Assembly: GCA_903910555.1 (NCBI GenBank)
Contig: CAIVZZ010000004.1
Coordinates: 62,001-126,000 of the forward strand
DNA: 64,000 nt
Reading direction: 5' to 3'
Source: an uncultured Gemmatimonadota bacterium
Lineage (GTDB): Bacteria > Gemmatimonadota > Gemmatimonadetes > Gemmatimonadales > Gemmatimonadaceae
This document shows positions 6,148 through 61,658 of this stretch, one piece after another; positions within the stretch are counted from its first letter, which is position 1; the number at the start of each line of letters is the position of its first letter. The position numbers and the translations under genes were made by a program. Under the pieces are notes generated by a model. It saw only the letters and a program-made list of their open reading frames with translations. It was not told the origin of the DNA and did not search any database.

Positions 6148-6186
6148 GCGCGGCGGGGGTGAGCCCTGCGGTGGCAGAGTGTACGA

Positions 6187-6336
6187 CGAGTTAACTGTTA
6201 ACCACTAACTTTTCGTCGGTTAGCCAAGGTAAGAAAATTCGCCCTGACCTCGAACGCGATCGACGCGGCTCGGTGTCAGGGCGAATTATTTAACTTTGGT
6301 TAACCGACCAACAGTTAGTTGTTAACAGTTAACTCG
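6187..6336. repeat. Large palindrome, family A copy 1 (probable bidirectional terminator)
   Basis: A 150-bp near-perfect inverted repeat between two convergent genes. The outer arms share CACTAACTGTTGGTCGGT with two other elements, at 8441 and 40812 (this copy reads ACTAACTTTTCGTCGGTT on the left arm). The inner hairpin (6236-6287) pairs AATTCGCCCTGAC with GTCAGGGCGAATT, has A/T-rich flanks on both sides and is private to this locus. A transcript from either strand would form a very long hairpin followed by U-rich sequence. Confidence 0.85.
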
Positions 6337-6367
6337 CAGTATCAGGTTAACAAGAAGTCAGTTTCTC

Positions 6368-8405: not shown

Positions 8406-8440
8406 TAACGGCCACCGCAGCTGTGAACACATGTACTGCG

Positions 8441-8582
8441 AGTGAACTGTTAACCACTAACTGTTGGTCAGTTAACCAAGGTGTAAAAATCCGTCCGGGC
8501 CACCAAACGCGCGATCGCGTTCGCAGCCCGGACGGATTTTCATACAGAACACCGACCAACAGTTAGTGGTTAACTGTTCACT
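8441..8582. repeat. Large palindrome, family A copy 2 (probable bidirectional terminator)
   Basis: A 142-bp inverted repeat between the convergent cold-shock operon and the VPS10-like gene. The outer arms carry AGTGAAC, GTTAACCACTAACTG and TTGGTCGGT as in the other family A members. The private inner hairpin pairs AAAATCCGTCCGGGC (8486-8500) with GCCCGGACGGATTTT (8526-8540). The + strand operon already has its own TTCG terminator just upstream, so this element is an addition rather than the only terminator. Confidence 0.85.
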
Positions 8583-40727: not shown

Positions 40728-40811
40728 ACCGCACGATGGCGTGCGGCGCGGACGGAAGCTTTACCTGATCTGCGCATGGCGTATCGAAAAAGCGCAGCGA
40801 ATCGAACCGCA

Positions 40812-40903
40812 AGTGGAAGGTTAACAACTAACTGTTGGTCGGTGTTCTGTTGACGAATTTGTTAACAGAACACCGACCAACAGTTAGTAGTTAACAGTTC
40901 ACT
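40812..40903. repeat. Large palindrome, family A copy 3
   Basis: A 92-bp inverted repeat. Both arms contain CTAACTGTTGGTCGGTGTTC or its complement and TTAAC near the ends, as in the elements at 6187 and 8441. The core is short (TTGACGAATTTGTTAACA). It ends with TTTTT beside the stop of the HAD gene, so on the minus strand it is a terminator for that gene, and lies 84 bases upstream of the methyltransferase start. Confidence 0.85.
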
Positions 40904-40905
40904 TT

Positions 40906-50232: not shown

Positions 50233-50256
50233 CTGAGCTGTGAGCTTCGAACGGCA

Positions 50257-50353
50257 CGACGTCAGACGATAGCTGCGAGTTATTGGCTGCGAGACAACGG
50301 CTTCATTACCGATCCTTGCACAAGTCGGTAATGAGGCCGTTTCTCTCGCAGCT
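50257..50353. repeat. Palindrome, family C copy 1 (right outer arm lost)
   Basis: The left arm reads CGACGTCAGACGATAGC, later GGCTGCGAGACAACG and GGCTTCATTACCGA, close to the element at 60381. The inner part is a 30-bp hairpin (50285-50353) ending CTCGCAG, but the outer right arm is missing and replaced by the remnant of a lipoprotein gene. Confidence 0.75.
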
Positions 50354-50705
50354 GTTCACTCTGAGCGGCTCGCCGGTCGGGGGCGCATCCGCAAGCAGCT
50401 TCACATCGAGCGTCACCGTCAGCGCGTCGTCACCGGCCGGAAAATTGATCACGGTATCGAGCGCGACGCTTCCGTCGGAGTGGTGCAGCACGACGTGCAC
50501 GCGGTTGAAGTCCACCACGCCCGACGCTCCGCTTCCCGCGAGCTGGTATGCCGGCGGAAACTGCGCCTGCCACGACAGGCCACGCGCCACGCGCACCGCC
50601 CGGAGACGTGACGTCGCGACCGCAGCTCAGTATCGCGAGTCCAAACGCGATGCCGAGCAGCGTCAAACGTGTGAGCGGTGAACTACGCCGTGAAATGGGG
50701 GCCAA
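50306..50705 (-). pseudogene. Remnant of a lipoprotein gene (frameshift and truncated end)
   Basis: Two pieces in different frames join near 50590. Upstream piece: SSPLTRLTLLGIAFGLAILSC is a lipoprotein leader, followed by GRDVTSPGG. Downstream piece: VARGLSWQAQFPPAYQLA, RVHVVLHHSDGSVALDTVINF and ALTVTLDVKLLADAPPTGEPL, a beta-sandwich text typical of exported Gemmatimonadota proteins of unknown role. The 3' end runs into the family C palindrome at about 50353, where coding sense is lost. It was probably inactivated by the element or by the frameshift. Confidence 0.75.
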
Positions 50706-51528: not shown

Positions 51529-53490
51529 ATGCCCGACAATATGAAACCGACGCACACTGCTGCGTCTCCGCAGAATGCCCACGTCTCAGAGGCGGAAGCG
51601 CGCGACGTTGCAGAACAGGCGCGTGAGACCGAGTGGACGCACCCGAGTTTTGTGCGTGAATTGTTTCTTGGCCGGTTCCGCGCCGAGCTGATTCATCCGC
51701 ACCCGATGGAAGACGCGGCGGAAGCTGCGCGCGCGAAACCGTTTCTCGATCAACTGAGCGCGTTTCTCGATACGTACGATGCGGACGAGACGGATCGTAC
51801 CGGGAATATCAAAGAGTCCGATGTTCAGCAGCTGCGCGACATGGGCGCGATGGGAATCAAGATTCCGAAAGAGTATGGCGGCCTTGGCCTGTCGCAGATG
51901 ACGTATGTGAAGGCGATGGAGCTGGTGACGTCGAAGTGCGGATCGCTCGTCGCGCTCCTCTCTGCGTCGCAGTCGATCGGCGTGCCGCAGCCGCTCAAGC
52001 TGTTCGGGACAGAGGAGCAAAAGAAGAAATATTTTCCGCGCATCGCGAAGGGTGCGATCACGGCGTTCGCGCTGACCGAGGTGCATGCGGGATCGGATCC
52101 GGCGACGATGACGACATCAGCGGTGCTCTCCGAAGACGGAAAGCACTGGGTGATCAACGGCGAGAAGTTGTGGTGCACGAACGGCACGCGCGCGGAACTG
52201 TTCGTGGTGATGGCGCGCACGCCGGACAAGATCGTGAACGGAAAGGCGCGCAAGCAGATCACGGCGTTCATCGTGGACAGCAAGACGCCGGGCTTTGAAG
52301 TGAAGATGCGCTGCCACTTCATGGGATTGAAAGCGATCGAGAACGGCTGGCTCTCGTTCAAGGACGTGAAAGTTCCGATCGAAGACGTGCTGTGGGCTGA
52401 AGGGAAGGGACTCAAGCTCGCGCTAACGACGCTGAACACGGGGCGCCTCACGATTCCGGCGAGTGTGGTCGGCGGGGCGAAGGCACTGTTAAAATCGGTG
52501 CGCGCGTGGGCGATGGAACGCGTGCAGTGGGGACAGCCGATCGGAAAGCATGAAGCAGTTGCACAGAAACTCGCGCGCATGGCGTCGAGCACTTTTGCGA
52601 TGGAGTCGGTCGCGCTGCTGACGACGTCGCTGTATGAGAAGGGCGGCTACGATATTCGTCTCGAAGCGGCGATCGCGAAGCTTTGGAACACCGAAGCGGC
52701 GTGGAAGGGCGTAGATGATGCGCTCCAGATTCGCGGCGGACGCGGCTACGAAACTGCGGATTCGCTCCGCGCGCGCGGCGAGAAACCGATTCCTGTTGAG
52801 CGCATGATGCGCGACTCGCGCATCAATCTGATTTTCGAAGGGTCGAGTGAGATCATGCGATTGTTCATTGCGCGTGAGGCGGTGGACGCGCACTTCTCGA
52901 TCGCGTTTCCGATCGTTGCGCCGGAGTCGTCGTTCTCGACTCGAATCAAGGCACTCATCAAGGCGACGCCGTTCTATGTGACCTGGTATCCCGCGCGCTG
53001 GATTCCGAGCTTCAAGACGTACGGCGATTTCGGGAAGCTCGCCGGGCACATGCGTTTTGTGGACGGCACGACGCGCAAGCTGGGGCGCTCGCTCTTTCAC
53101 GCGATGGTCCGGTTCGGCCCGAAGCTCGAACGAAAGCAGATGGTGCTGTTCCGCGCGGTGGATATCGGAGCTGAACTTTTTGCGATGGCGGCGAGTTGCT
53201 CGCGCGCGGTGATGCTGGCGTCAAAGCTGAATCAGCCTGAGGCGATTCAGCTTGCGGATGCGTTTTGTGTTGAGGCGCGCGGCAGGATCGAGGCGCTGTT
53301 CAAGTCACTGTACGGGCCGCACGATGAGCAGCTCTACAAACTGGCGATGGGAGTGTTGAAGGGTGAGTACGCGTGGCTCGAGGAAGGGATCGCGTGGGAG
53401 TCGTACTATGGCGAGTCTTCAGTCCAGAGTCTTCCGTCTAGCGTCCGAAAACCAGCAGTTGTCAGTTCCGAACTGACGACTGCTGGTTAA
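51529..53490 (+). CDS. Acyl-CoA dehydrogenase, very-long-chain type
   Basis: 653 aa. FAD enzyme that makes trans-2-enoyl-CoA. AFALTEVHAGSDPATMTTSA (about residues 182-202) is the FAD-binding loop, WVINGEKLWCTNG follows; the C-terminal half has the RMMRDSRINLIFEGSSEIMRLFIAREA helix with the catalytic Glu region (near 436-452). The extra C-terminal domain fits VLCAD/ACAD9-type enzymes. The last 26 codons (from about 53413) are provided by a palindromic repeat, and the family tail is normally shorter. A later in-frame ATG at 51541 is possible. Confidence 0.9.
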   Translation: MPDNMKPTHTAASPQNAHVSEAEARDVAEQARETEWTHPSFVRELFLGRFRAELIHPHPMEDAAEAARAKPFLDQLSAFLDTYDADETDRTGNIKESDVQQLRDMGAMGIKIPKEYGGLGLSQMTYVKAMELVTSKCGSLVALLSASQSIGVPQPLKLFGTEEQKKKYFPRIAKGAITAFALTEVHAGSDPATMTTSAVLSEDGKHWVINGEKLWCTNGTRAELFVVMARTPDKIVNGKARKQITAFIVDSKTPGFEVKMRCHFMGLKAIENGWLSFKDVKVPIEDVLWAEGKGLKLALTTLNTGRLTIPASVVGGAKALLKSVRAWAMERVQWGQPIGKHEAVAQKLARMASSTFAMESVALLTTSLYEKGGYDIRLEAAIAKLWNTEAAWKGVDDALQIRGGRGYETADSLRARGEKPIPVERMMRDSRINLIFEGSSEIMRLFIAREAVDAHFSIAFPIVAPESSFSTRIKALIKATPFYVTWYPARWIPSFKTYGDFGKLAGHMRFVDGTTRKLGRSLFHAMVRFGPKLERKQMVLFRAVDIGAELFAMAASCSRAVMLASKLNQPEAIQLADAFCVEARGRIEALFKSLYGPHDEQLYKLAMGVLKGEYAWLEEGIAWESYYGESSVQSLPSSVRKPAVVSSELTTAG

Positions 53491-53525
53491 CAGACGCTAG
53501 ACAGGAGACCTTAGACGCAGACTCT
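53413..53525. repeat. Large palindrome, family B copy 1
   Basis: A 113-bp inverted repeat between two convergent genes. The arms read GAGTCTTCAGTCCAGAGTCT and CCGTCTAGCGTCCGAAAACC, with the complement on the other side; the core is GTCAGTTCCGAACTGAC. It contains the last 26 codons and the stop of the acyl-CoA dehydrogenase gene, and touches the stop of the EamA gene. Confidence 0.85.
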
Positions 53526-54450
53526 ACGCTACGCGCTGGCGTCGGAACTGAAGAACCACCACCGCCGAAACGATCATCGCGCCACCGAGCAGCATGTTCG
53601 CGGTGATCGCCTGACTCAGGACGATCGCGCCGAGCACTGCGGTGAGGAAAGGCTCAACCGTTGAGATGATCGCGGTGCGCACTGCGCCGAGCCGCATGAG
53701 GCCCATCAGGAAAAACACCGAGGGCATCACGGTGCTGAAGAGCGTGAGCGCGATGATCGCGATCCATGCAGTCGACGAGAGATTTGCGCTCAGCGTTTGA
53801 TCCTGCAAGGCGAGCAGCAGGAAACAGAGTGCTGATCCGATCTTTCCATACGCGCTGGTGACGGCCACCGGATGCGACTTCTGCATCCACTGCATGAGCG
53901 GGATGTACATGCCGTAGATGATTGCCGCGCCGAGTGCGAGTGCGATTCCGGTCGTCGGGAACTGTGCTGCGCCGGGCGCGCCGCCGGCACCGGGCACTCC
54001 AACGATCACGACGATTCCCCCAAAACTGAGCGCGAGCGCCGCGACGCGTCGCAGTGTCAGCGGTTCCGCGCCGCGAATTGTTTGGACGAGCGTGACCCAC
54101 GCCGGATATGTGTAGAAGAGAAAAGCGAGTGTTGCGACGCCGATGTACTTGAGGCTGGAGAGCGCCATCCCAACCAGCAGCGCCTGCCCACCGCCGCCGA
54201 GTACGATGAAGCGCAGCGCTTCGGCCCATCGCATGCGCGGATAATTCTGCGTTGTGATGAAAGTCACCATCACGACGGCGCCGATGAGGTAGCGCCACAT
54301 GAGGACATCGTAGAGCGAGACGCCCTGCTTGGTGGCGATCGTCGAGAGCGTGCTGACAGCAGCGAACCCGCACGCGGCGAGCAGGGTATACGCTGTGCCG
54401 GCGCCAGTTTCGCCGGGGATGGTGATCGCCGCTGATTTTGCTTCGCTCAT
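53524..54450 (-). CDS. EamA/DMT-superfamily transporter
   Basis: 308 aa with ten hydrophobic segments in two EamA repeats (about 20-145 and 165-300). Repeat 1: YTLLAACGFAAVSTLSTIATKQGVSL; repeat 2: PTTGIALALGAAIIYGMYIPLMQWM, FSTVMPSVFFLMGLMRLGAVRTAIISTVEPFLTAVLGAIVL. Exporter of metabolites such as amino acids; substrate unknown. The TAG stop is the end of the family B palindrome. A 540-base gap with structured DNA lies upstream. Confidence 0.9.
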   Translation of the reverse strand: MSEAKSAAITIPGETGAGTAYTLLAACGFAAVSTLSTIATKQGVSLYDVLMWRYLIGAVVMVTFITTQNYPRMRWAEALRFIVLGGGGQALLVGMALSSLKYIGVATLAFLFYTYPAWVTLVQTIRGAEPLTLRRVAALALSFGGIVVIVGVPGAGGAPGAAQFPTTGIALALGAAIIYGMYIPLMQWMQKSHPVAVTSAYGKIGSALCFLLLALQDQTLSANLSSTAWIAIIALTLFSTVMPSVFFLMGLMRLGAVRTAIISTVEPFLTAVLGAIVLSQAITANMLLGGAMIVSAVVVLQFRRQRVA

Positions 54451-54531: not shown

Positions 54532-54582
54532 CGCGATGCAACCATTTGGACGTACAGGTGTTCTAATCCTGTAGAAGGAATA

Positions 54583-54660
54583 GGCGACGGGCAGGGAGTA
54601 CTGCGGTGCAGGCCGGTGCTGGTGGGGGGCCGGCCTCCTGTGTACTGACTGCCCGTCGCC
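54583..54660 (+). other. Stable nested hairpin, possible structured RNA
   Basis: A 12-bp perfect outer stem (GGCGACGGGCAG with CTGCCCGTCGCC) holds a second 5-bp stem (AGTAC/GTACT, 54597-54601 with 54642-54646) and an inner 7-bp stem (AGGCCGG/CCGGCCT, 54610-54616 with 54630-54636). No T-run follows, so it is not a standard terminator. I could not match it to SRP RNA, 6S RNA or a known riboswitch. It lies in the divergent gap. Confidence 0.4.
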
Positions 54661-54676
54661 AATTCCGTTAACGGCA

Positions 54677-54926
54677 GAGGTGAGTGGGAGTTGAGAATGA
54701 GAGGTGAGTCTGAGAGGGAGGGATGAGTTGGAGAACGCTCAGTGGGAGTTTGAGGGGCGAGAGTGAGGCAGAGAGGGAGTAAAGTGGGAGTGGGATCCTA
54801 ATCGATTCCCACTCGCACTTTGCTCCCTCTTTCGCTCACTCTCGCCACTCAAACTCCCACTTTACTTGCTCCAACTCATCCCTCCCTCTCTAACTCACCT
54901 CTCATACTCAACTCAGATCTCACCTC
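54677..54926. repeat. 250-bp low-complexity palindrome, family D
   Basis: Arms of about 120 bases. The left arm is purine-rich (GAGTGGGAGTT, GAGAGGGAGGGATGAGTTGG and GAGAGTGAGGCAGAGAGG are parts), and the right arm is its complement, rich in C and T. Identity between the arms is high, with small insertions; the core is around GGATCCTAATCGATTCC. The left strand is almost free of C. Can form a long cruciform or triplex, or a 120-bp RNA hairpin. Only 64 bases separate it from the start of the dehydrogenase gene. Confidence 0.85.
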
Positions 54927-54990
54927 AGATTTCACCTCTCCCTTCAGCCGGACCCTAGCGTGTAGTCCGTATTCCGATGACTTTTCCGGA

Positions 54991-55881
54991 ATGCCCCCCA
55001 TCGCATTTCTCGGCCTCGGCGCAATTGGCGCCCCTATGGCCAAACATCTCAAAAATCCGGACTTCGATCTCGTCGTTTGGAACCGGACTCCTTCAAAAGC
55101 TGCGGCGTTTGCCGCGGCAAACGGCGCGCGACACGCGAAAACACCGGCCGAAGCTGCGCGCGGCTGTCAGATAGTCATCACGTGCTTGCCGACCTCGCGC
55201 GAAGTCGCGTCGCTGCTCGATGGCCCCGACGGATTGCTCGCGGGCATGGCGAATGGCTCAATCCTCGTCGATTGCACCTCCGGTGATCCCGCCACATCGC
55301 GCGCAACCGCCGCGCGACTCGCGGAGAAAGGAATCGGATTTCTCGATGCTCCGGTTAGCGGTGGCGTTGTAGGCGCGGAAGCTGGCAAGCTCACCGTGAT
55401 GGTCGGCGGTGATGCGGCAACGCTCGAGCGCGCGATGCCGGCGCTCAACACGTTCGGTGAAAAAATCGTCCACTGCGGCCCCGTGGGCGCCGGCGATGCG
55501 ATCAAGGCTGTGAATCAAGCGATGCTCGCCGTGCACATCTGGAGCTTGGGCGAAGGAATGCTTGCGTTGTCAAAAGCCGGTGTGAAACCGGAAGTCGCGC
55601 TCGATGTGATCAACGCATCGAGCGGGCGCTCGAATGTCTCGATGAATCTCTTTCCGCAGCGCGTCATTGGCCGGGCGTTTCCACGAACGTTCAAGCTCGC
55701 GCTGATCGACAAAGACGTTCGCATTGCCGCACAGTTTTTGCGTGAACAGAATGTGCCGTCGCCGCTGACACAGCTGACGGCTGAACTCTTCGCCGCTGCG
55801 CACGCCGAGCTTGGAGAGGAGGCGGATCACGTCGAAGCGGTGAAAGTGATCGAGCGCACCGGCGGAGCGGAGATCAAGTGA
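54991..55881 (+). CDS. 3-hydroxyisobutyrate dehydrogenase-like NAD(P)-dependent oxidoreductase
   Basis: 296 aa. 6-phosphogluconate-dehydrogenase-like fold: IAFLGLGAIGAPMAKHL (nucleotide-binding GxGxxG, residues 4-20), VVWNRTPSKA, DAPVSGGVVGAEAGKLTVMVGG (substrate motif S122-G-G), and GDAIKAVNQAML with the catalytic Lys (near residue 172). Could act on 3-hydroxyisobutyrate, 2-hydroxy-3-oxopropionate or glyoxylate. The start ATG at 54991 is just after the family D palindrome; sequence upstream is in frame but is repeat DNA. Overlaps the next start (GTGA). Confidence 0.9.
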   Translation: MPPIAFLGLGAIGAPMAKHLKNPDFDLVVWNRTPSKAAAFAAANGARHAKTPAEAARGCQIVITCLPTSREVASLLDGPDGLLAGMANGSILVDCTSGDPATSRATAARLAEKGIGFLDAPVSGGVVGAEAGKLTVMVGGDAATLERAMPALNTFGEKIVHCGPVGAGDAIKAVNQAMLAVHIWSLGEGMLALSKAGVKPEVALDVINASSGRSNVSMNLFPQRVIGRAFPRTFKLALIDKDVRIAAQFLREQNVPSPLTQLTAELFAAAHAELGEEADHVEAVKVIERTGGAEIK

Positions 55882-57146: not shown

Positions 57147-57157
57147 CGCGCCGTCTG

Positions 57158-57270
57158 TAGTCTGCAGTCTAAGGTCTTCTGTCTAGCGTCTGAAAACCTG
57201 CGGTTTGCAGTTCACAACTGCGTACTGCGGGTTTTCAGACGCTAGACAAAAGACACTAGACACAGACTCA
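57158..57270. repeat. Large palindrome, family B copy 2
   Basis: A 113-bp inverted repeat between convergent genes. The arms read GTCTAGCGTCTGAAAACC and its complement GGTTTTCAGACGCTAGAC; the outer part AGTCTGCAGTCTAAGG pairs with CTAGACACAGACT. It stops exactly at the TGA of the kinase gene (57268-57270). The core differs from the 53413 copy. Confidence 0.85.
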
Positions 57271-60333: not shown

Positions 60334-60380
60334 CCCGAGAAGCTACGGGCGAGAGCTGAGAGGGGGAAGGAACTACAACT

Positions 60381-60510
60381 GCCCGACGTCAGACGTTAGC
60401 GGTGAGCATGTAGCTACGAGACAACGACTTCATGACAGATCAGCGCGCGAATCTGTGATGAAGTCGTTCGCTCGCAGCTAGCAACCGATAGCTAACGTCT
60501 GATGTCGGGC
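60381..60510. repeat. Large palindrome, family C copy 2
   Basis: A 130-bp inverted repeat. The left arm GCCCGACGTCAGACGTTAGC pairs with GCTAACGTCTGATGTCGGGC on the right; inner arms read CGAGACAACGACTTCATGAC and its near complement. Between the starts of the kinase gene and the end of the GH13-like gene on the minus strand, so it may terminate the latter. It resembles the element at 50257. Confidence 0.85.
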
Positions 60511-60512
60511 TG

Positions 60513-61658
60513 TTATCTGTTAGCTCGCTTCTCGGGGCTCGGCACAAACGGCTTCTTGTGCGAAACCCGCGTCTTTTCGAGTCCGCTCAAGAACAGTTCG
60601 TACTTCGACCCCGGATTCCACAGCACCCATCCGTCGTATCCCGCGTCGTAGACCGCGCGCTTCTGCTCGCGCAGTTCCTCGGGTCCGTACGGCGGCTTGC
60701 CGAGCGTGAACGCCTGCAGCCATGGGCGCACGCGTTCGCCGCTCAGGCCGAGCTTCACATTGCGCTCGTGTGCACTGAGGATTGCGGCGTGGATGATCGC
60801 GTACGGCTCCGCATTCGGATGCGCGACATTCAGCGAGCCCGGCGGATAGTGCGATGGATACGTCATCGGCAGGATCACGTCGGTGACAGGCGCAAGATGC
60901 TCCCACTGTTGTCCGACTTCGAGCGCGTTGGGAACAGTCGTCACAAGACCGAAAATATCCGCCGTCGTGCGGACGCCGAGTTTCGAGAGCCGCGAATGCG
61001 CGAGCGAAAGAAAATCCGCGAGCGCCTGCTCTTTGTTCTGTCCGTTCTGGTCCGGAAAGATTTGCGGCGGAAGCGATTTGTATGGCTCGGGGAACCGGAT
61101 GTAGTCGAACTGCACTTCGTTGAATCCAAGTCGAGCCATGTCTTCGGCGACATGGATGTTGTACTCCCAGAGCTCGTGATGATACGGATTCACCCAGAGC
61201 GTGCCTTTTTTATCGCGCCACGGCGTGCCGTCGGCTTTGCGAATCGTCCACGCAGGATGCACGCGCGCGGTGACTGAATCCTTGAACACCACAATGCGCG
61301 CGACGGCGATGATGTGGTGTGCGTGGAGCGTATCGATCAATTCTTTGAGCTTCGGAATCGTTCCCGATTTTCCCGCGTTGTGCTGCAGTGACGTATCCGT
61401 TGGCGCGTAGTTCAGCCCGAACTCGTCTTTGATATCGATGATCAGTGCGTTGATCTCGGTTTGATCCGCGATCTGAATGAGCTGATGGATTCGCTTCGTG
61501 CTTTGCGCCGCGAAGCGGTTCACGTAGAGCCCGCGAACGATCTGCGTATCGGGCGCTGTCGAATGAACAGTTGGAGTAACCGCTGAGGCAGGGGCCTTCG
61601 ATGCACCCTGCGCGAACGCCGTCGAGCCCACAAAGAGGGCGAGGAGACTGTATTTCAC
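60513..61658 (-). CDS. Putative glycoside hydrolase (DUF4015/GH13-like)
   Basis: 381 aa, GTG start at 61658. Signal peptide MKYSLLALFVGSTAFAQG. TIM-barrel segments: RGLYVNRFAAQSTKRIHQLIQIAD, EINALIIDIKDEFG (with the D-x-K-D-x-F/G pattern), HIIAVARIVVFKD, FNEVQFDYIRFPE (acidic Asp, the usual catalytic site in this family), DVILPMTYPSHYPPGS. It resembles DUF4015/COG1306 proteins found in many phyla; the substrate is unknown. The last bases precede the family C palindrome. Confidence 0.85.
   Translation of the reverse strand: MKYSLLALFVGSTAFAQGASKAPASAVTPTVHSTAPDTQIVRGLYVNRFAAQSTKRIHQLIQIADQTEINALIIDIKDEFGLNYAPTDTSLQHNAGKSGTIPKLKELIDTLHAHHIIAVARIVVFKDSVTARVHPAWTIRKADGTPWRDKKGTLWVNPYHHELWEYNIHVAEDMARLGFNEVQFDYIRFPEPYKSLPPQIFPDQNGQNKEQALADFLSLAHSRLSKLGVRTTADIFGLVTTVPNALEVGQQWEHLAPVTDVILPMTYPSHYPPGSLNVAHPNAEPYAIIHAAILSAHERNVKLGLSGERVRPWLQAFTLGKPPYGPEELREQKRAVYDAGYDGWVLWNPGSKYELFLSGLEKTRVSHKKPFVPSPEKRANR

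Follow-up and report, generated by a model that had tools for sequence, protein, structure and literature searches.

The palindrome at 54677-54926 is the strongest inverted repeat that the repeat search found in the window (the whole 64-kb stretch of DNA analyzed). It is located in an intergenic site, outside any 23S rRNA gene, between two divergent genes which encode an EamA/DMT-type transporter and a 3-hydroxyisobutyrate dehydrogenase / tartronate semialdehyde reductase-like protein (Table 1). The repeat search delimited core arms of 108 nt (54688-54795 and 54807-54914), 87% complementary and separated by a spacer of 11 nt; the arms given in Table 1 include the outer ends. RNA folding of the 54677-54926 strand predicted one hairpin of -201.8 kcal/mol (shuffle mean -89, z -21.1), and DNA folding of the same single strand gave -112.7 (z -21.8). 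The ATG of the reductase gene begins 64 bases past the palindrome end. Therefore, the 250-bp palindrome reported in a preliminary description of this DNA is real, and it is, as stated there, a very long hairpin-former in a divergent gap. The left arm contains 78% purine but its longest pure purine run is 12 nt, so that the purine/pyrimidine composition attributed to the palindrome is only approximate. Mirror matches amount to 8%, which identifies an inverted repeat and not a mirror repeat; the absence of mirror symmetry and the purine runs of at most 12 nt argue against the H-DNA or triplex that had been suggested. The Rfam search of the palindrome gave no match above the gathering score, and the sub-threshold hairpin matches were to unrelated families, e.g. 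microRNAs.

Table 1. Palindromes of the window and genes flanking the family-D palindrome
Feature	Position	Strand	Remark
Palindrome, L075 arms	6173..6341	.	convergent gap
Palindrome, L075 arms	8438..8582	.	78 nt between arms
Palindrome, L075 arms	40809..40904	.	flank match
Degenerate palindrome, L074 arms	50234..50366	.	flank match
Family-A palindrome, L076 arms	53411..53523	.	overlaps 3' end of acyl-CoA dehydrogenase gene
EamA/DMT-type transporter, divergent flanking gene	53524..54450	-	start 54450
Family-D palindrome, L080 arms	54677..54926	.	flank match
Left arm, family-D palindrome	54677..54795	+	GAG 'text', gagttgagaatgagagGTGAGTnnGAGnGGGAGGGATGAGT...
Loop / centre, family-D palindrome	54796..54806	.	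11 nt
Right arm, family-D palindrome	54807..54926	-	reversed, 86% identical to left arm
3-hydroxyisobutyrate dehydrogenase / tartronate semialdehyde reductase-like, divergent flanking gene	54991..55881	+	ATG 54991
Second family-A palindrome, L076 arms	57156..57268	.	convergent gap
Palindrome, L074 arms	60377..60514	.	flank match

A second hairpin (54577-54666) lies directly before the palindrome and shows 25-nt arms, 88% complementary (GGCGACGGGCAG.../...CTGCCCGTCGCC), with GGCCGGTGCTGGTGGGGGGCCGGCCTCC inside. It is kept in the sibling genomes G010, G012 and G002, has no match in Rfam, and could be a small RNA, a leader or a terminator.

Family D and its gene-bearing member

Arms of family D are found at about ten loci of the 3.2-Mb genome, always head to head: on contigs C4 (the window), C9, C3, C30, C16, C13 (two loci) and C25, with single arms on C26 and C6. 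Their placement is extragenic, in divergent, tandem and convergent gaps among unrelated genes, and the family was not found in other genera (61 relatives searched). The label "Family D" of the preliminary description thus corresponds to a dispersed family with further copies in the same genome. A local accident, with no other copies and a bare locus in relatives, is contradicted by these copies and by the related kind of sequence that the relatives carry at the locus.

The C25 locus is the only one with widely spaced arms (about 630 nt), which enclose a TIGR02436/PF05635 gene; its product is named "four helix bundle protein" or 23S rRNA intervening-sequence protein (IVP). This complete member (C25:11976-12836) is arranged as arm, PF05635 four-helix-bundle gene and inverted arm. 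The flanks of the L080 IVP gene match 54677-54942 of the window with E down to 3e-40 (BLAST of flanks against the window), and the window copy has no IVP ORF. The palindrome at 54677-54926 is very probably a gene-less (miniature) member of family D, derived from an IVP-gene element. No transposase or nuclease was found inside a family-D element, the IVP gene of C25 being the only gene between D arms, and inspection of the C25 element showed neither a reverse transcriptase nor a template repeat. Furthermore, no target-site duplication was found (shared flank words of 4.5 nt for own flanks vs 4.8 nt for cross-pairs), which argues against a classical DDE transposon.

The two arms of the same D locus had an identity of 0.865, vs 0.854 for arms taken from separate loci (permutation p 0.10); they match each other no more closely than they match arms from elsewhere, so the hairpins have not been kept perfect after dispersal. 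Compensatory pairing within the gene-less D loci was not significant, and therefore we make no claim of a selected RNA structure at them. In the arms, columns of low variation alternate with highly variable columns.

At the ends of contigs C6 (L011:1-200) and C26 (L009:1-150), a D palindrome is placed between AcrB-type and malic-enzyme-like genes and is seemingly interrupted by an IS3-like element. The two contig-end arms probably represent one locus, with the palindrome between an AcrB-type efflux gene and a malic-enzyme-like gene, which the IS3-like element has split at the contig break, in the centre of the palindrome; G010 has these two genes in an intact arrangement.

IVP genes and their private arms

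PF05635 is very common in bacteria, and its members carry no annotation beyond "four helix bundle protein" or "23S rRNA intervening sequence protein". To our knowledge, the PF05635/TIGR02436 four-helix-bundle proteins are widespread and have no known function, and we know of no catalytic motif for IVP. The IVP proteins analyzed here are basic (pI 9.6-10.4) and show dN/dS of 0.06-0.15 where dS could be estimated, a rough value with synonymous sites near saturation that indicates purifying selection. Solved relatives of IVP are 2gsc and 2rld. In XCC0516, five four-helix bundles are arranged as a ring. PF05635 proteins are similar in fold to Avd of diversity-generating retroelements (DGRs; PMC10053308, PMC4990558), which is essential for DGR retrohoming (PMC10053308).

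This genome contains 11 matches to PF05635, and the 14 control genomes contain none. Inverted arms are located just outside all 11 genes, with scores of 53.6-167 bits for the own pairs vs at most 28.3 bits for cross-pairings of an upstream flank with the downstream flank of another IVP gene (n=110), and at most 29.2 bits at 312 virtual-gene control positions along the window. The arms are mostly 44-170 bp long and their text differs gene by gene, so that each of the 11 IVP genes has its own arm family. For non-orthologous pairs, the more alike the proteins, the more alike their arm texts (Mantel r 0.57, p<0.0002). Gene-less palindromes of at least four of the 11 arm families are scattered in this genome. 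In BLAST, each of the eight large palindromes of the window matched the flanks of one of four IVP genes (L075, L074, L076 and L080), which makes these palindromes one class, the gene-less relatives of IVP-gene elements; the palindrome at 54677-54926 had been set apart as different in kind from the others, and this distinction does not hold.

These arrangements bear on whether the palindromes could be ordinary MITEs, the non-autonomous derivatives of a classical DNA transposon, with an IVP gene that was only carried along as cargo or trapped as a passenger by the copies on either side. MITEs, ERIC and Rickettsia palindromic elements are gene-less palindromic dispersed repeats, and the palindromes described here are like them in being gene-less and dispersed, with one overlapping an ORF end (53411-53523). 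They differ from them in the lack of a detected target-site duplication and in being linked to an IVP gene instead of a transposase. The terminal inverted arms, the excess of gene-less over gene-bearing copies and the extragenic placement fit a MITE origin; however, a passenger is not expected every time, and 11 of 11 IVP genes are so arranged, each with a different arm family. With neither a target-site duplication nor, at C25, a transposase between the D arms, we think a MITE origin improbable.

In the siblings G010, G012 and G002, arms above 39 bits were found at 24 of 27 PF05635 loci, G010 being fragmented and 90% complete, so that its PF05635 count may be low. The IVP loci of G002 and G012 gave arm statistics identical to those of JANYIJ010000128.1 and PMYN01000071.1, so that these two siblings seem to correspond to public Gemmatimonadetes MAGs; the window probably derives from an uncultured Gemmatimonadota bacterium. 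A class-wide sample showed 22 of 28 IVP loci reaching 40 bits. In a wider sample drawn from Bacteroidota, Chloroflexota, Fibrobacteres, Verrucomicrobia and other bacteria, this value was reached by 17 of 75 IVP loci, vs 1 of 5550 cross-pairs; therefore long arms are not universal. According to a motif check, conserved 23S motifs are near only one of 121 IVP loci, which indicates that the IVP-gene elements are not rRNA intervening sequences.

As side observations, the stop codon of the acyl-CoA dehydrogenase gene (53490) lies inside the family-A palindrome at 53411-53523, whose text apparently encodes the last residues of the protein; in the siblings the end of this gene shows different repetitive text. 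In addition, L009:5540-5705 is a palindrome with L075-type arms, a family that is abundant in G002 and has a few copies in G012 and G010.

Turnover and inversion among sibling species

The sibling comparison covers six D sites. Four of them (window, C3, C26a and C26b) carry sequence of another family, L229, in G010, and three (window, C3 and C26b) carry it in G012. G002 shows a third palindrome family at C3 and C26b, with the text GGCAACTACGGCGAATCGTGAGT... (L241 and L243); at the window site it has a short remnant that resembles L229. A D-like palindrome is found at C13b in G010. The C30 site has no palindrome in G010, G012 or G002, and the neighbouring gene is also missing there; since C30 is the sole sibling-empty site, no clean empty site was found among the six. 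In each of G010 and G012, the L229 family comprises one locus with the gene and about 23-24 loci that are gene-less or partial; none was found in this genome or in G002.

At the window site, G010 and G012 have only one L229 arm left, and both flanking genes are conserved. It had been suggested that the palindrome might regulate the downstream gene. A hairpin that controls the reductase gene in cis, or serves it as an RNase III site, would agree with the position of the palindrome in a divergent gap 64 nt ahead of the ATG, with its very stable hairpin and with the cleavage by RNase III of 23S intervening sequences that have similar stems (PMC4990558). Against it, family D is found at unrelated genes in divergent, tandem and convergent gaps, and the siblings conserve both genes around a gap with only shortened, different sequence, half-arms of another family; we regard this role as very improbable. 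On the same two grounds, the palindrome most likely does nothing specific for the neighbouring genes, and the hairpin at this site is probably tolerated baggage and not a regulator. The hairpin may, as a side effect, influence 5' transcript stability.

At the L080, L077 and L072 loci, a sibling carries the IVP cassette in the opposite orientation with respect to the conserved flanks; at L075, L077/L214 and L081 the cassette is collinear. The palindrome had also been suggested to act as a recombination signal, and the inversion of arm-flanked cassettes between sibling species bears out in part this recombination-related guess. In this genome the two L077 arms share 97% identity, and their identity to the G012 arms is 85%, with seven columns changed alike in both arms; no such matching of arms is seen at the gene-less D loci. 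In the protein tree, L080 groups (91/87) with IVPs that bear D-like arms at other loci, and not with the IVPs of its own locus, which could reflect either replacement or drift at this locus, with neither favoured. As judged from these sequence comparisons, the coupling of gene and arms is family-specific, the cassettes undergo inversion and there is turnover at conserved sites.

Alternatively, the palindromes could be non-mobile: an IVP that acts as a nucleoid or RNA-binding protein would bind them at fixed sites, in a regulatory or architectural role, and conversion between copies would create and alter them where they stand. The presence of another family's palindrome in G010 at four of the six D sites with sibling data, the alternation of conserved and highly variable columns in the arms, and the basic and conserved IVP proteins are in line with fixed sites. 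However, C30 lacks a palindrome in three siblings, the copy number varies by species (9-10 D loci here and about 24 of the L229 type in G010) and the neighbouring genes are unrelated; fixed sites are thus a credible but unlikely account.

At the orthologous position of the window palindrome 57156-57268, G012 (L083:5560-5880) and G010 (L084:6830-7030) carry another long palindrome, with CAACTGCC...CCACGGAT text, which has no match to any known IVP flank.

Candidate mechanism and comparison with known systems

The explanation that we favour, with some confidence, combines a gene-less family-D member at 54677-54926 with a hairpin system linked to IVP genes. That the IVP protein drives the spread or maintenance of the palindromes in trans has, in our estimation, not quite an even chance. 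In such a mechanism, the small basic IVP protein would recognise the hairpin or cruciform of its own family, as RNA or as extruded DNA, and the hairpin would be copied, converted or flipped by host enzymes together with IVP. One immobile IVP gene could thereby keep up a dispersed population of palindromes in trans, as RAYT does for REPINs. Cassette inversion would be a product of arm recombination, and overwriting between arms of similar GAG "dialects" may account for the different families at one site in sibling species. More broadly, and tentatively, PF05635/TIGR02436 proteins may each define and maintain in trans a private dispersed hairpin family that has no transposase of its own, in a RAYT-like manner, with hairpins that spread, flip and swap at conserved intergenic sites and with the 23S intervening sequence as a special case.

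The data suggest a widespread system, apparently not described before, in which small proteins are paired with DNA hairpins scattered over the genome; a search of open-licence PMC papers found none that links IVP genes to dispersed palindromes. A genomic role would thus be offered for a common family known only by its "four helix bundle" and "23S rRNA intervening sequence protein" labels. For the many long palindromes of this genome a single rule is proposed, which is to look for an IVP gene with the same arms. The long-standing question of the function of standalone S23/IVP proteins also becomes directly testable, by asking whether the hairpin of the own arms is bound, moved or converted.

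The intervening sequences of 23S rRNA with an S23/IVP ORF (Leptospira, Coxiella) share with the elements described here the PF05635 family and a short gene inside complementary long-stem termini. Complementary termini around an IVP ORF are also found in the gene-bearing C25 copy, and the window copy has no ORF. The differences are that these elements are intergenic and not in 23S rRNA, and that their arms, mostly of the length given above, are family-specific and have many gene-less dispersed copies. The Coxiella intervening sequence was called a selfish element and its ORF is reportedly decaying (PMC4990558), whereas the IVP ORFs analyzed here are under purifying selection. A broader class of mobile hairpins is suggested, of which the rRNA intervening sequences would form one branch. 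A difference from the DGRs, besides the likeness to Avd, is that no reverse transcriptase or template repeat was visible on inspection of the C25 element and that no variation specific to adenines was demonstrated.

The closest working analogy is REPIN-RAYT, with IVP replacing the transposase. REPIN-RAYT systems consist of distinct single-copy genes, each with its own type of flanking palindrome, the same type being dispersed extragenically, and with several types per genome (PMC3116915). The likeness is one gene per family, flanked by a palindrome type that is dispersed extragenically. However, what the D arms enclose is a TIGR02436/PF05635 gene, whose product is a small four-helix bundle that has no Y1 transposase domain, and since this defining transposase is not what sits between the arms, the element is not filed as a REPIN. 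Two further differences are the length of the hairpins, about 250 nt here vs 20-60 nt for REP units, and the cassette inversions.

D-like palindromes were also observed in two siblings, at L050 (G012:C50) and L068 (G010:C6); they are orthologous, their centres are nearly identical and they are apparently inverted with respect to their flanks.
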